Of a stretch of DNA of 64,000 nucleotides, positions 3,932 through 30,432 are shown piece after piece (positions within the stretch are counted from its first letter, which is position 1; every line of letters begins with the position of its first letter). The notes under the pieces were generated by a model, which did no database searches, had not been told where the DNA came from, and saw nothing but the letters and a program-made list of their open reading frames with translations. Origin of the DNA: Rhizobium tropici CIAT 899 (lineage in GTDB: Bacteria; Pseudomonadota; Alphaproteobacteria; Rhizobiales; Rhizobiaceae); the NCBI RefSeq assembly GCF_000330885.1, contig NC_020059.1:3629501-3693500 (forward strand). The letters run 5' to 3'. Both the position numbers and the translations under genes were made by a program.

Positions 3932-3987
3932 ATTCACCTTGTGAATTGGTTCTAAATAGGTTCTATATGTCAGCTATGGATAGAACC
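3932..3987 (+). promoter_or_regulatory. Candidate operator of the GntR-nag operon
   Basis: Two signals overlap the start of the GntR gene. ATTCAC-CTT-GTGAAT (3932-3946) is a perfect inverted repeat. GGTTCTAA (3948-3955) and GGTTCTAT (3959-3966) are direct half-sites 11 bp apart, one helical turn, and an inverted half-site ATAGAACC lies at 3980-3987 inside the coding start. Together they look like an autoregulatory operator for the GntR protein made from 3967. This is inference: the boxes are visible, binding is not. Confidence 0.5.
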
Positions 3988-4749
3988 AGTTTGATCGGCG
4001 AATTGAATAGTCGCGGCCTCAGCGACGGGGCGGGTAGCGGACCGTTGTACAAGCGCCTGGCACAAGCGCTGACGGGTCTGATCCAAGAGGGTCTGCTGAA
4101 ATCGGGCACGGCACTTCCGAGCGAGCGCGATCTCGCCAGCGCCCTGCAGATTGGCCGCATCACGGTCAGAACCGCCTATCGCGACCTGCTCGCCTCGGGC
4201 GTCATCGAGTCACGCCACGGCAGCGGCACCTTCGTCTCGCAGCAAGTGGAACGTATCGAGCAGCCGCTCTGGCGCCTCTCCTCCTTTTCCGCAGACATGC
4301 GATCGCGCGGCCGTGAACCGGCAGCGCGCATCCTGTCACGCACCGTCAGCGCGCCCGCGCCGGAGGAATCCTTCCTGCTCGGCCTCGGCCTTGATGAGCC
4401 CGTGCTGCGCCTCGACCGACTGCGTCTGGCGGATGGCCAGCCGCTCGCCATCGAGCGCGCCGTCGTCCCCATCAAGTTCCTGGGTGAAGAGGCCATATCC
4501 GAGGGATCGCTTTACGACGCCCTGGCCGCCAAAGGCTTCAGGCCCGTGCGCGCCCAGCAGAGGCTGACCGCCGTGACACTCGACCCGACATCCGCGTCGA
4601 TCCTGACCGTGAAGGCCGGAGCGCCCGCACTTCTGATCGAGCGCGTCTCCCGCCTCGCGGACCAGCGCGTCGTTGAATATACCCGCTCGCACTATCGCGG
4701 CGATGCCTATGATTTTGTTGCTGAATTGAGAATTGGAGATGACCTATGA
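3967..4749 (+). CDS. GntR/HutC-family (UTRA) regulator of the nag operon
   Basis: A 260-residue regulator. The winged helix-turn-helix (about residues 25-95: LYKRLAQALTGLIQEGLL, LPSERDLASALQIGRITVR, YRDLLASGVIESRHGSGTFVSQ) is classic GntR. Residues 100-255 match the UTRA effector-binding fold of HutC/FarR-type members, with the typical C-terminal VVEYTRSHYRGDAYDF. I chose ATG 3967; ATG 3976 is also possible. The open frame extends further upstream, but those codons look non-coding. The stop overlaps the nagB start as ATGA (4746-4749), so the genes are translationally coupled. In this setting it most likely represses the operon and is released by an amino-sugar phosphate (inference). It resembles the regulators called NagQ. 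Confidence 0.9.
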   Translation: MSAMDRTSLIGELNSRGLSDGAGSGPLYKRLAQALTGLIQEGLLKSGTALPSERDLASALQIGRITVRTAYRDLLASGVIESRHGSGTFVSQQVERIEQPLWRLSSFSADMRSRGREPAARILSRTVSAPAPEESFLLGLGLDEPVLRLDRLRLADGQPLAIERAVVPIKFLGEEAISEGSLYDALAAKGFRPVRAQQRLTAVTLDPTSASILTVKAGAPALLIERVSRLADQRVVEYTRSHYRGDAYDFVAELRIGDDL

Positions 4750-25482: not shown

Positions 25483-25887
25483 CTAATCATCGTCGGAGGT
25501 GAGGCGATCGATCGCACGCCGATCCCTTTTTGTGGGCCTGCCGCTGCCGGGTGCCCGCAACGCCTGCTCGAACGGGGTGAGGCGTTTTGTCTCATCCGGC
25601 GGCGGCGTCAGATCTTCGTAAAGCAGCCTGGCTTCCTCGAAGGGACCTCTGCGCTCGCCGGCCGACCGCACGATCAACACTATATCCCGCCGCTCCAGTG
25701 AGAGCTCGATGCGGTCACCGGCCTTGATGCCGAAACTCGGCTGCACGACCCGCTCGCCATTCACCCGGACGCTGCCGTTCTGCACATAGACCTGCGCCAA
25801 TGAGCGGGATTTCACCATGCGGGCAAAGAACAGCCATTTGTCGATGCGCTGGCGCGAACCGGAAAATGGCTGTTTCTCGTCCGTCAT
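25483..25887 (-). CDS. S4-domain RNA-binding protein (Hsp15/HslR-like)
   Basis: A 134-residue protein with an S4 RNA-binding domain at residues 10-75 (QRIDKWLFFARMVKSRSLAQVYVQNGSVRVNGERVVQPSFGIKAGDRIEL) and a basic, flexible C-terminus (GRPTKRDRRAIDRL). Hsp15 in E. coli binds stalled 50S subunits that carry nascent chains; this relative is likely to act on ribosomes too. It starts 3 bp after the stop of the SUV3-like helicase and so is cotranscribed with it, which suggests a shared RNA role. Confidence 0.9.
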   Translation of the reverse strand: MTDEKQPFSGSRQRIDKWLFFARMVKSRSLAQVYVQNGSVRVNGERVVQPSFGIKAGDRIELSLERRDIVLIVRSAGERRGPFEEARLLYEDLTPPPDETKRLTPFEQALRAPGSGRPTKRDRRAIDRLTSDDD

Positions 25888-25890
25888 GAC

Positions 25891-28800
25891 CTATTTCTTC
25901 ATCTGCTCCTTGAGGGCAGCGAGCTTGGCGAAAGGAGAATCCGGATCGATCGGCTTTTCCTTGCGCGGCGGCTTGGCTTCGAAGCGCAACGGCTGCGAGG
26001 CACCGCGATTGTTGCGATCATTCCGGTCGCCACGTTCCTGACGATCGCCGCGATTGCCCTGATGCTGCGGACGGCCGCCCTCGCGATTGCCGCGCGGACC
26101 CTTGTCATTGCCACGAGCCTCACGATTGTCGCGTCCATCGCGGCGATCACGACCGCCTTCGCGATTGCCTTCACCGGCTGCCTGCTCGCCACCACGGCGA
26201 TTGCCCTGCTGACCGCGCCCCTCGCCCTGCTGGCCACCGCGACGATCGCCGTGGCCGCGGCCACCTTGCCGCTGCTGATGGTCGTTGCGGCCACCCAGAC
26301 GCCAGAGCAGAACAGGCTTCGGTTCGGTCGGCTCTGCGGCGGCTTCTGCAACGGCAACAGGCTCGGCAGCTACGGCAACTTCCGTCTCAGCAGGTGCCTC
26401 GGCGGGAGCGGCTGTTTCCGGCGAAACGGCTTCTACTTCCTTAGCCGGCTCGTCAGTCGCAGTGTCGGCATCATCATGATCGGCTTTTTCGGCTGTGGCG
26501 TCCCCTGCCGGTGCGGCGGGCGCTGCAGCCGCATCCTGCTGAGCGAGGAAGGCCGTAGCCTCCTCCGCCTTCACCGCATCGGCACGATAGCCGAGACCCT
26601 TGAGGATTTCCTCCATGTCCTCGAGCGTCGCGCCGAGAATGGAGAGCATCGCAGTCGTCGTCGTGAAACGACGGCCATCATAAGCGCCGTCGGGGCGCGA
26701 AGCCTGGCCGGGCTTCCACTGCAGCAGCGGACGGATGAGATCCGCCAGGCGCTCGAGGATGTCGATGCGCACCGCACGCTTGCCGAGGAACCGGAAGCCG
26801 GCAAGCTTGTAGAATGTGCGCTCATAGCCCGGATCGGTGACGACCGAGGTGCGGCCAGCGGCCAGAACCGGAATCAGATCGCCATAGCCCGGCTTGTCCA
26901 GGCCATCGTTCTTCAGCGCCCAGAGGAGCGTGATGAGCTCGGCCGGAGCCGGCTTCAGCAGGGCGGGCACGAAAATATGATACGCGCCGAAGCGAACGCC
27001 GTAGCGGCGCATCGAGGCACGCCCGTCCTGATCCAGCGACTTCACTTCTTCCGTGACGTCGCGGCGGAACAGAACGCCGAGATTCTCCACCAGCTGGAAA
27101 GCCAGCCCCTTGGCAAGGCCCTGCAGATCTTCGGCACGCTGGAGATCGTCCAGCGGCTTCAGGATCGTGCTTATATGATGGTTCACGAAGCGCTCGATAC
27201 GGGCGGCGACATGATCGCGCGCATTGCCGGTCAGCTGCTCGTCGGCGAGCAGGATGACACGCGGACGCATGACATGATCGCTGCCTGACAGACGCGCGAC
27301 GGGGTCGCCGAGCCAGCGCACCAGGCCATCGGCACTGATCGCGAGATCGCCGTTGCCGGCCGCATGCATACGTGCGGCACGCGCCTCGAACTCCAGCCCC
27401 AGCGCCTTTTGCGAGGCGGTCTGGACAGCCTTGGCATCCGGCCCTTCGGTCCCTGCGATAGGCGTGAACCGGAATCCGGTCAACTGTCCCACATGATGCC
27501 CCTCTACGAAGACATCTCCATTCACACTGATTTCAGCTTCCAGCATCGCATTCTCTCTCAGGCGCTTCATGAGCACAGATGTCCTGCGATCAACAAAGCG
27601 TTTCGTCAACCTCTCATGTAACGCGTCGGACAATCGATCTTCGATTTCCCGCGTCTTTTCTTGCCAGTGTGTCGGATCGGCAAGCCAGCCGGGCCGGTTC
27701 GACACATAGGTCCAAGTCCTTATCTGCGCGATTCGCGCCGAAAGCGTGTCGATCTCGCCATCCGTCCGATCGGCGCGATGCACCTGTTCGGCCAGGAAAT
27801 CCTCTTTCACCGTGCCATAGCGCACGAGATCAGAAAAGAGGGTGGCGATGAGATCAGCATGCTGGGCAGGCGTGATGCGCCGATAGTCGGGAAGCGCACA
27901 GGCCTCCCACAATTTCTCAACCCGAGCCGGGTTGCTGGCAAGATCGACTATCTCCAGATCGCGTGACAGATATTCCAATGCCTGCTGGTCTACCGCAGGC
28001 AGCGCGCGCGTCAAGCCCTGCACGCGAGGCGCGTCTTCCAAACTTGCACGCAACGCCGCGATCGAAGCGAAATCCAGTTCTTTGGTGCGCCATTGCAGCA
28101 CCTTGACCATGTCGAATTCGTGTCCCTCGATCCGGCGCACGAGTTCGTCGTCGAAAGGATCGACCTGTCCCGTCACCCCGAAGGTGCCGTCCTTGAGATG
28201 GCGGCCGGCGCGCCCTGCGATCTGACCGAGCTCTCCCGGATTGAGATTGCGGAACTGATAGCCGTCGAACTTGCGGTCCTGCGCAAAGGCGACATGATCC
28301 ACATCGAGGTTAAGCCCCATGCCGATCGCATCGGTCGCAACCAGATATTCGACATCGCCGGCCTGATAGAGAGCCACCTGCGCATTGCGGGTACGCGGGC
28401 TGAGCGCCCCGAGAACGACCGCCGCGCCACCGCGCTGGCGACGAATGAGTTCTGCGATCGCATAAACCTCGTCGGCGGAAAAGGCGACAATGGCCGTGCG
28501 CTGCGGCAGCCGCGTGATCTTCTTCTGCCCGGCGTAGAAAAGATGCGATAGCCTCGGCCGTTCGAGGACGGTAATGCCAGGCAGAAGTTGTTCAAGGATC
28601 GGCCGCATCGTGCCGGCGCCGAGCAGCAGGGTTTCATCGCGGCCGCGCAGATGCAGAAGGCGGTCGGTAAAAATATGTCCGCGCTCCAGATCGCCGGCAA
28701 GCTGCACTTCGTCGATCGCGACGAAGGAGGCGCGCGTCTCACGCGGCATGGCCTCCACCGTGCAGACCGAATAGCGAGCATTGGGCGGCGATATCTTTTC

Positions 28801-29016
28801 CTCGCCGGTCACCAGCGCGACATTGTGCGCGCCGACCTTCTCGACGACGCGCGTATACACCTCACGGGCAAGCAGCCGCAGCGGCAGGCCGATCACGCCG
28901 CTGCCGTGTGCCACCATGCGCTCGATGGCATAATGGGTCTTGCCGGTATTGGTCGGTCCGAGCACTGCGGTCACGCCGCGTCCGCTCAGGATCATGGGCT
29001 GCGAAGTCTGAGTCAT
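25891..29016 (-). CDS. SUV3-like RNA helicase with Arg/Gly-rich tail
   Basis: A 1041-residue superfamily 2 helicase. Walker A is GPTNTGKTHYAIERM near residue 20, the Walker B variant is IDEVQLAGD near 100, and motif VI is GQIAGRAGRHLKDGTFG near 275. These and the rest of the core match the mitochondrial degradosome helicase SUV3, whose bacterial relatives are mainly alphaproteobacterial. After residue 840 come an Ala/Glu-rich acidic stretch and then about 110 residues of Arg, Gly, Asn, Gln and Asp repeats (GRGHGDRRGGQQGEGRGQQG and similar), a disordered RNA-binding-type tail, before a conserved-looking end (PDSPFAKLAALKEQMKK). The start may be ATG 29028 instead. It is in an operon with the S4 gene. 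Confidence 0.9.
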   Translation of the reverse strand: MTQTSQPMILSGRGVTAVLGPTNTGKTHYAIERMVAHGSGVIGLPLRLLAREVYTRVVEKVGAHNVALVTGEEKISPPNARYSVCTVEAMPRETRASFVAIDEVQLAGDLERGHIFTDRLLHLRGRDETLLLGAGTMRPILEQLLPGITVLERPRLSHLFYAGQKKITRLPQRTAIVAFSADEVYAIAELIRRQRGGAAVVLGALSPRTRNAQVALYQAGDVEYLVATDAIGMGLNLDVDHVAFAQDRKFDGYQFRNLNPGELGQIAGRAGRHLKDGTFGVTGQVDPFDDELVRRIEGHEFDMVKVLQWRTKELDFASIAALRASLEDAPRVQGLTRALPAVDQQALEYLSRDLEIVDLASNPARVEKLWEACALPDYRRITPAQHADLIATLFSDLVRYGTVKEDFLAEQVHRADRTDGEIDTLSARIAQIRTWTYVSNRPGWLADPTHWQEKTREIEDRLSDALHERLTKRFVDRRTSVLMKRLRENAMLEAEISVNGDVFVEGHHVGQLTGFRFTPIAGTEGPDAKAVQTASQKALGLEFEARAARMHAAGNGDLAISADGLVRWLGDPVARLSGSDHVMRPRVILLADEQLTGNARDHVAARIERFVNHHISTILKPLDDLQRAEDLQGLAKGLAFQLVENLGVLFRRDVTEEVKSLDQDGRASMRRYGVRFGAYHIFVPALLKPAPAELITLLWALKNDGLDKPGYGDLIPVLAAGRTSVVTDPGYERTFYKLAGFRFLGKRAVRIDILERLADLIRPLLQWKPGQASRPDGAYDGRRFTTTTAMLSILGATLEDMEEILKGLGYRADAVKAEEATAFLAQQDAAAAPAAPAGDATAEKADHDDADTATDEPAKEVEAVSPETAAPAEAPAETEVAVAAEPVAVAEAAAEPTEPKPVLLWRLGGRNDHQQRQGGRGHGDRRGGQQGEGRGQQGNRRGGEQAAGEGNREGGRDRRDGRDNREARGNDKGPRGNREGGRPQHQGNRGDRQERGDRNDRNNRGASQPLRFEAKPPRKEKPIDPDSPFAKLAALKEQMKK

Positions 29017-29224
29017 AGGTCCGTGCATAGGCGAGAAACAGCCGTCTTCCGATCAGCCAGTTCCTCCTGGAGGAAACGAACAGATGACGACCATATGTGA
29101 CAAAGGCAAGACCCGAATGAAAAAACAGATGCGGCAACATTCGATTTCATATTTGAGCGCCTCAACCATAAGCTACATTTACGCTGCATCCCATGCGAGT
29201 CCCGGCGATTCCGGAACAGCCTGA

Positions 29225-29996
29225 GAACGAATCGGAGACGAATCGCTGACTCCGCCATGTTCCTTATTTGTTCACGACTACATATGGATTTCAATGAAAA
29301 GATTCCCACCAAATGCTGAATCTCGTTTACAAGGCTTTCCGCAGGAAAAAGGAGTCAAGCGGAGAATCCTCAGCCAGCGAAATTTCGCGCCGCTCCATCG
29401 TTAACAATCTGTAAATAATAAAGTTTCGCATGAATTAGCGGACGGCACCAATATCCAGGCCAAAGCCGGAACGAATCGGCGACGAATCGCAGATTCCAAG
29501 CGATTCTGTTTCTGTTCTCCACAATATCTAGCATTTTCCCGGCAAGGCCATACCGGACTCTGAATGGTTGAGATGCGAATCCGAGCCGAATCTGCGATTG
29601 CGGTTCGTCTTTTGACGAGCGCAGCTATAATGAATCGACAAATGCACGCAAAAGGTGCAGTCGTTAACACAACGATCAAAGCCGGAACGAATCGGTGACG
29701 AATCGCGGATAGCAGCAGGTATCGCATTTGTTCACGGCTACATGTTGTATTTCGCCGGAGCAGCATCGCGACATAGAGGTCAGCTTCAATGGCAATGCTG
29801 TTGCGGAGGTCGCTGCGAATTAACGAATCCGCCCGCGAACACACCACCTGGACGATATTTGCCGGCGGCAGCATGCTTGTATTCGGCATGTCGGCAAACG
29901 CCAGCCGTTAACCAAGGTTCAAATGCAGAACGAATCGCCGACGAATCACGGACATCCGGCCTTTCTCGTTTCGTTCACCACAACCCATTGTATTTT
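29225..29996 (+). repeat. Five-copy interspersed repeat, about 70-105 bp per copy
   Basis: Copies are at 29225-29292, 29469-29538, about 29575-29600 (diverged, core only), 29685-29753 and 29928-29996. The core is GAACGAATCGGNGACGAATC, which itself holds ACGAATCG twice, 11 bp apart. After a constant 21-base variable stretch comes a second conserved block like TTTGTTCACNACTACAT and then GTATTTC. For the copies at 29685 and 29928 similarity also extends about 35 bp upstream (CAGYCGTTAACN). No copy has an indel between the two blocks. Centre-to-centre spacing of the four good copies is 216-244 bp. I do not recognise the family. Confidence 0.8.
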
Positions 29997-30009
29997 AATG
30001 GTATTTTAA
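29995..30009. promoter_or_regulatory. CtrA-type binding site TTAA-N7-TTAA
   Basis: TTAA (29995-29998), seven bases, TTAA (30006-30009), then C: the full consensus of the alphaproteobacterial cell-cycle regulator CtrA. Near-matches lie at 29401-29415 (TTAA-N7-TAAA) and 29908-29922 (TTAA-N7-TCAA). Confidence 0.5.
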
Positions 30010-30119
30010 CCATACAAACGAATTTGCCGCCGCGCTTGTAACCGTCACCCGATGCGATCCCATTTAAGGGGTCGCTAAGCATCCCAACTGCTGCGCGCGT
30101 GCATTTTTATTTCTTAGCC

Positions 30120-30144
30120 GGAACAATTGCCGCGCATGCAAGTT
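30120..30144 (+). promoter_or_regulatory. Candidate EcfG-like promoter before the small genes
   Basis: GGAAC (30120-30124), 16 bases, AGTT (30141-30144). The -35 is exact and the -10 differs from CGTT by one base. It reads toward the DUF3309 gene 130 bp downstream. The same architecture recurs at 30781-30805. Confidence 0.35.
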
Positions 30145-30276
30145 TCTATGAACAGAATTGAGGAATTCGTCCATTCACTGGAACAGTTTCGAGTGGGAAA
30201 GCTGGAAGGTTAGCGCCATATCGAACAGCGATAATGGCGGGATATTCGAGCCGGACGGACATGGAGGAGACATATC

Positions 30277-30432
30277 ATGCTTGGTACGGTATTGCTTGTC
30301 ATACTGATTCTGCTGCTGGTTGGCGCACTTCCCAGCTGGGGTTACAGCCGGTCATGGGGGTATGGCCCGTCGGGTGGTCTCGGGCTTGTTCTCGTCATTG
30401 TCCTCATTCTGTTATTAATGGGGCGCATCTGA
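30277..30432 (+). CDS. DUF3309 small membrane protein
   Basis: A 51-residue protein: hydrophobic helix LGTVLLVILILLLVGALP, a short central loop with SWGYSRSWGYGPSGG, and a second helix LGLVLVIVLILLLMGRI. This is the DUF3309 pattern, a tiny two-helix membrane protein common in rhizobia and of unknown function. ATG 30277 has a strong Shine-Dalgarno (GGAGGAGA) 7 bases upstream. It lies 46 bp before the lipoprotein gene and may share its transcript. Confidence 0.85.
   Translation: MLGTVLLVILILLLVGALPSWGYSRSWGYGPSGGLGLVLVIVLILLLMGRI

Follow-up and report, generated by a model that had tools for sequence, protein, structure and literature searches.

A GANTC-rich repeat array upstream of a Suv3-like helicase gene in Rhizobium tropici and much of the Hyphomicrobiales is a candidate element for control through CcrM methylation

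We analysed a window of 64,000 nucleotides from the Rhizobium tropici CIAT 899 genome, which comprises 6.69 Mb in four contigs; the window (the whole stretch, here called the 64-kb window) lies on contig C1 (3.84 Mb). A dense cluster of CcrM-type GANTC sites occupies the interval between a gene for a Suv3-like helicase and a DUF3309 gene (Table 1). The helicase gene adjoins an S4-domain gene, with which it possibly forms one operon. Beyond the DUF3309 gene lie a glycine-zipper gene and then phbB, phbA and phaR (names from annotated relatives). The cluster interval was called gene-free in a preliminary description of this DNA, and that fits: two annotated relatives have no gene there, although mechanical ORFs run across this region of the window. 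No sigma70 promoter stood out in the window.

Table 1. Features of the helicase-DUF3309 region, in window coordinates.
Feature	Coordinates	Strand	Basis
S4-domain gene adjoining helicase	25483..25887	-	Pfam S4; same neighbour in annotated relatives
Suv3-like helicase gene, suggested to be the element's target	25891..29028	-	Pfam DEXQc_Suv3 and Helicase_C
GANTC cluster, 22 CcrM-type sites	29197..29947	.	Site counts, shuffles, chromosome sample
Unit 1 (GAAC at 29225): GAAC-N7-GAACGAATC-N3-GACGAATC, GACTC, GTTC-N7-GTTCAC, dyad	29214..29292	+	
Unit 2 (GAAC at 29469)	29458..29536	+	Fixed-spacing consensus, alignment
Unit 3 (GAAC at 29685)	29674..29752	+	Fixed-spacing consensus, alignment
Unit 4 (GAAC at 29928), with TAACCATA tail	29917..30014	+	
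CtrA-type box TTAA-N7-TTAA	29995..30009	.	Motif match
DUF3309 gene, other flank of cluster	30277-30432	+	Pfam

The DUF3309 side of the interval has a feature of its own. Upstream of that gene, at 30120-30146, lies a GGAAC-N17-GTTTC sequence that resembles the consensus of EcfG general-stress sigma promoters, and a similar GGAAC...GTTTC precedes DUF3309 in record NZ_CP072868.1 (L034). The element as a whole was rejected as a promoter of the DUF3309 gene alone, since the annotated S. meliloti record keeps unit 1 in an interval without that gene. Two records filed as plasmids, CP090106.1 (L032) and L034, carry the core neighbourhood of helicase, S4 gene, phbB/A and phaR; the 3.7-Mb record of the two, labelled pSymB, is probably a mislabelled chromosome.

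An exact count returned 22 GANTC sites at 29197-29947, the number earlier obtained by eye for about 750 bp, and base composition predicts 2.9, in agreement with the earlier estimate of about 3. Dinucleotide shuffles of the same stretch gave a mean of 4.7 sites (sd 2.0, maximum 11), and none of 1000 reached 22. In the rest of the 64-kb window, the richest 747-bp stretch held 5 sites. By the preliminary description, many equally rich intergenic windows would have spoken against the methylation idea. We sampled the chromosome in 20 pieces of 20 kb, which together hold 569 sites (1.42 per kb); no 747 bp of them had more than 6, against the 22 seen here, and because this sample covers 400 kb of 6.69 Mb, the genome-wide rank of the cluster is extrapolated from it. 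GANTC is one of 24 motifs that place G, A, T and C, each once, around a free base; of these it ranked first in the cluster (22 sites; next was CGNAT with 15) and was among the rarest across the whole window (105 sites).

Many of the sites belong to a repeat unit present in four tandem copies, spaced 216-244 bp apart, in each of which 45 bp separate the GAAC from the last GTTC. The pairs of GANTC sites 11 bp apart inside the copies, and the five sites outside the repeat cores (29301, 29352, 29364, 29556 and 29632), are both real, as first described. A search by fixed-spacing consensus found 69 units in 24 loci, 35 of which align without gaps over 96 columns. The aligned unit reads CA, GAAC-GAATC-N3-GACGAATC-GC, GAC or GAT, a stretch that varies in sequence but not in length, TTC-N7-GTTCAC, and the dyad CNA-N4-TNG. 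Its two GAATC sites sit 11 bp apart. All but 2 of the 35 aligned units, and 39 of 40 matches to the model, keep the second one intact, and wherever a site of the pair is intact its middle base is A (127 of 127 and 222 of 222, the latter partly by construction). In a later set, GTTC stood at its unit position in 185 of 222 units. Sequence between units is less conserved than the units themselves.

The unit showed no sign of being an RNA gene. A consensus fold of the units had only 5 pairs (−1.7 kcal/mol) with no compensatory change, and an Rfam search gave no credible family, its single listed match being a chance nematode snoRNA outside the cluster. Within this genome, all four exact core matches fall at this locus, and a search with unit 4 gave, besides itself, a single match under E 0.1, which was unit 1. 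Judged from alignment and folding, then, the repeat unit has a fixed architecture, a nearly invariant CGAATC core and no RNA structure.

To follow the unit beyond this genome, we used R1, a sequence-only profile built from the 35 gap-free units of the 69. At E 0.1, R1 matched 241 of 297 genomes of the family and 90 of 106 genera, the weakest matches of which may be chance; at E 0.001, it matched 172 of 249 genomes of the order (74 of 107 genera). The helicase lay within the fetched flanks in 43 of the 46 loci brought in by R1. A sample free of repeat bias consisted of 80 named loci that were picked only for their helicase alignment, as the top 80 among at least 592, and R1 at E 0.01 matched 60 of them. 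Every one of the 101 R1 matches in these named loci lay upstream of the helicase and on the opposite strand. Genera with a match include Rhizobium, Sinorhizobium, Agrobacterium, Mesorhizobium, Phyllobacterium, Bradyrhizobium, Rhodopseudomonas, Kaistia, Stappia and Roseibium, while the Aureimonas, Fulvimarina, Jiella, Methylobacterium, Methylorubrum, Xanthobacter and Pseudovibrio loci of the named sample had none. In one reduced genome (L111), a unit lies directly upstream of the helicase start. Five fetched loci have units and no helicase.

The element is thus not universal in the order. R1 found no match in 77 members; the helicase was present in all 30 of these that were searched. In the 20 of these 30 whose loci were fetched, GANTC counts were 0-7 per 900 bp, and a looser pattern found at least one unit core in 8. 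A match to RAMA (CcrM) was found in 248 of the 249 genomes of the order, the exception (G363) being 91% complete. In the R1-negative lineages, which keep CcrM, the element was lost or never gained.

Units also occur in a few other settings. A plasmid record of Sinorhizobium sp. B11 (L035; CP091035.1, plasmid p2) carries at 3989-4110 a lone unit with a TTTTTAACCATA tail, between a LysR gene and paoA and directly followed by an inverted repeat of about 13 bp. Two loci of family f26 (L097 and L106) have second arrays of units at a spacing of about 240 bp; these lie away from the helicase, near an ORF that resembles ribosomal protein L28. In L099 (G417), a unit at 3964-4042 sits among ORFs that resemble phage or gene-transfer-agent head genes. 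Two loci of family f34 (L101 and L103) share a lone unit in the same gene neighbourhood, and the one inspected has no GANTC cluster.

The GANTC enrichment accompanies the unit. In 79 of the 80 named loci (one was too short), four bins covering 100-500 bp upstream of the helicase held 20.9, 16.6, 11.1 and 12.0 GANTC per kb, compared with 1.0 per kb in helicase coding DNA and 0.6-2.5 per kb beyond 600 bp upstream. Orthologous intervals that kept the repeat and lost GANTC would have spoken against a role for methylation; the intervals upstream of the helicase retain 11-21 sites per kb. The mean per 600 bp was 8.6 in 61 loci with a unit core vs. 0.9 in 18 without, and these counts show that, at the level of sequence, loci lacking the unit also lack the GANTC cluster. 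Because the units themselves make up part of this enrichment, we analysed the sites outside them separately.

Outside the units, GANTC was kept far more often than other motifs. In Rhizobium, sites were retained in 514 of 757 comparisons (0.68 vs. 0.17 for the other 23 motifs pooled; rank 1 of 24), in clade f20 in 280 of 359 (0.78 vs. 0.25; rank 1 of 21), in Bradyrhizobium in 240 of 283 (0.85 vs. 0.34; rank 1 of 18), and in Mesorhizobium in 38 of 68 (0.56 vs. 0.27; rank 2 of 20), where the comparisons are ordered pairs of related sequences and not independent events. The middle base differed in 33% of the retained comparisons in f20 and 14% in Rhizobium, and in none in Mesorhizobium and Bradyrhizobium. 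Across 130 outside sites from 33 of 36 genera (two Rhizobiaceae and one reduced genome excluded), no flanking base was shared (at most 0.09 bit with strands pooled and 0.16 bit when oriented by the middle base), and the middle base was A, C, G or T in 40, 28, 30 and 32 sites. Outside sites that are retained, share only GANTC and leave the middle base free bear the marks of selection for the methylation target itself. The enrichment is therefore more than a by-product of the repeat, as the preliminary description had argued from the five sites in the window.

Sites outside the units are also spaced by helical turns in several families. For an order-wide set with one locus per genus, the mean cosine of their distances at a period of 10.5 bp was 0.475 (155 distances, 138 sites, 36 genera), compared with −0.15 to 0.05 for periods of 8-9.75 and 11.25-14 bp. 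This set comprises 36 of 64 helicase-upstream loci (70 before six without the helicase were dropped), and 34 of its 36 genera lie outside the Rhizobiaceae. When sites were jittered by up to 5 bp, the mean cosine fell to 0.061 (sd 0.050), and none of 1000 jitters reached 0.475. Distances peak at 20-22, 30-33 and 41-44 bp. The phasing is absent in the other 23 motifs, which scored −0.29 to 0.32 at 10.5 bp (no motif had more than 68 pairs). Thirteen families offered one pair or more, and 11 of them scored above 0.2. A second, partly overlapping set of 24 loci gave 0.22, a value reached by 18 of 1000 jitters. Sixteen Rhizobiaceae loci taken together (96 pairs) scored 0.01, inside the null, although the window's own locus alone gave 0.47. 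Family f34 showed no phasing either (0.01). Unit and outside sites were not mutually in phase (−0.23, 104 pairs). By these distances, several families outside the Rhizobiaceae are strongly phased, but not every family is, and the pooled loci of the window's own family gave no phasing.

What reads such sites may differ between the unit core and its surroundings. On the helicase strand, the core CGAATC together with its next base (G or A) becomes YGATTCG. GcrA activation in Caulobacter is reported to involve the extended motif TGATTCG, more broadly YGAKTCK or YGAKTCG, and for Brevundimonas the same paper describes no extended motif, only a slight preference for C before GANTC (PMC7987155). YGAKTCK was matched by 369 of 627 in-unit sites, compared with 149 of 569 sampled genome sites and 154 of 499 outside sites, the last being near background. 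On these counts, GcrA makes a fair candidate at the core but a poor one elsewhere in the array. Since the core fits the published extended motif, GcrA with sigma70-RNA polymerase would be the best candidate reader there. The unit core fits the extended motif of GcrA/CcrM-controlled promoters (PMC7987155), but the element differs from such promoters in having many sites over at least 400 bp, phased in several families and outside the motif.

For the outside sites, the nearest parallel is SeqA, which in vitro binds efficiently only where its GATC sites share a helix face and are separated by two to three turns (PMC5145175). Enterobacterial arrays bound by SeqA likewise place methylation sites on one helix face at two to three turns; in contrast, the element described here involves another methyltransferase and another site, lacks phasing in the Rhizobiaceae, and lies away from the origin. 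Proteins that shield GANTC from CcrM, such as MucR (PMC5172544), are a further possibility. The preliminary description also pointed to a full CtrA box 48 bp past position 29947. The box is present, but an exact TTAA-N7-TTAA stands at that place in only 6 of 24 related loci; a half-box, TAACCATA, at a fixed distance from the last unit scored in 17 of the 24.

Our leading interpretation, which we regard as about evenly balanced between right and wrong, is that the array is a cis-acting control element read through CcrM methylation, upstream of the Suv3-like helicase gene and conserved across much of the Hyphomicrobiales. The dense, conserved sites and their one-face spacing in several lineages suggest that the cell reads methylation at the array as a signal, presumably through DNA-binding proteins that respond to its methylation state. 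A passing replication fork would leave the array hemimethylated, a state lasting until CcrM acts late in the cycle; occupancy of the array, and with it transcription of the helicase gene, would then track the replication state. An oligomerising reader could assemble on the phased sites, perhaps alongside GcrA at the core. The orientation fixed in 101 of 101 matches, together with the unit at the helicase start in L111, favours control of the helicase. Weighing against it, the array mostly lies 100-500 bp upstream, five loci with units have no helicase, and no sigma70 promoter stands out.

The earlier suggestion of a methylation-sensed regulatory or replication-linked element held up in its first half, in that the cluster is exceptional in the chromosome sample and GANTC is kept in orthologous intervals; its origin variant did not. 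The gene hemE, which we take as a marker of oriC, is about 177 kb from the cluster, and no DnaA-type box lies near (matches in the 64-kb window only at 2118 and 47517), so the array was rejected as the chromosomal origin. It was likewise rejected as parS, an exact parS-type site being about 171 kb away. Control of the adjacent helicase gene fits better than an origin. Among 25 genomes compared, unit position was known in 23; in 19 of these, no more than about 0.62 Mb separates the element from hemE, and the other four all belong to family f34. Plain synteny could explain this closeness. DNA near the origin stays hemimethylated longest in Caulobacter (PMC11514494).

Such closeness, the 10.5-bp phasing with its peaks at 20-22, 30-33 and 41-44 bp, and the five loci with units and no helicase would all fit a SeqA-like sequestration, titration or chromosome-organising site. 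There, a protein not yet described would bind adjacent GANTC sites in the hemimethylated state along one helix face and so mark DNA that has just been replicated, the helicase being a mere syntenic neighbour. We consider this unlikely, given the invariant orientation and position of all 101 matches with respect to the helicase, the lack of phasing in Rhizobiaceae, and an asymmetric unit that exceeds a mere set of methylation sites; moreover, at oriC itself the GATC sites are not spaced by whole helical turns (PMC5145175). The rigid unit spacing and the GAATC pair 11 bp apart, with middle base A wherever intact, could instead mark a tandem operator whose regulator recognises a specific sequence, such as direct repeats of 11 bp, with GANTC part of the binding sequence and methylation incidental. 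Such an operator would not account for outside sites that share only GANTC, take all middle bases and are nonetheless retained, and we think it an improbable explanation.

The remaining alternatives carry still less weight. Tandem copies at 216-244 bp in a gene-free region might each be the promoter or body of a small RNA gene, which the absence of a consensus fold or Rfam match, and the lower conservation of the intervening sequence, make quite improbable. It is very improbable that the units are a dispersed CcrM-associated repeat of the CIR kind or the remnant of a mobile element: GANTC-bearing CIR repeats are described in Caulobacter and Brucella (PMC2229807), and single units do occur at a few other places in relatives, but here all four exact cores fall at one locus, the best other match to unit 4 is unit 1, and the position is conserved across families. 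Finally, an array of LexA (SOS) operators is hardly credible at all. The alphaproteobacterial LexA box is GTTC-N7-GTTC, which unit 1 of the window contains; in only 18 of 222 units, however, is it exact.

Besides the SeqA arrays and GcrA-controlled promoters, two further described systems come close to the element. CIR (CcrM-associated intergenic repeats; Chen and Shapiro, 2003) are likewise intergenic, about 100 bp long, conserved and GANTC-containing, but they are described as abundant, with two long inverted-repeat arms (PMC2229807), whereas the unit is confined to a single locus in this genome, lacks such a fold, and sits beside one gene across an order. Overlap with the lists of Chen and Shapiro (2003) for other alphaproteobacteria is possible. 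In the repABC-ori2 module of Agrobacterium, too, GANTC sites stand in groups, which are believed to link methylation with events of the cell cycle; these are three groups of three sites at a replication module (PMC11514494), in contrast to a chromosomal element upstream of a helicase gene. Among the titles and abstracts listed by literature searches, none describes this element.

An undescribed Hyphomicrobiales reader might take sets of CcrM sites on one helix face as SeqA does with GATC, with the array as its main chromosomal docking site, coupling helicase expression or local chromosome state to fork passage; we hold this idea to be unlikely, and changes of spacing make its one-face feature directly testable.

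For most CcrM methylation sites, no reader is known. A conserved element whose methylation sites, as opposed to their flanks, are under selection offers a defined place to look for such readers. It would tie the methylation that accompanies the cell cycle to a helicase gene that has been little studied, in rhizobia, Agrobacterium, Bradyrhizobium and their relatives.
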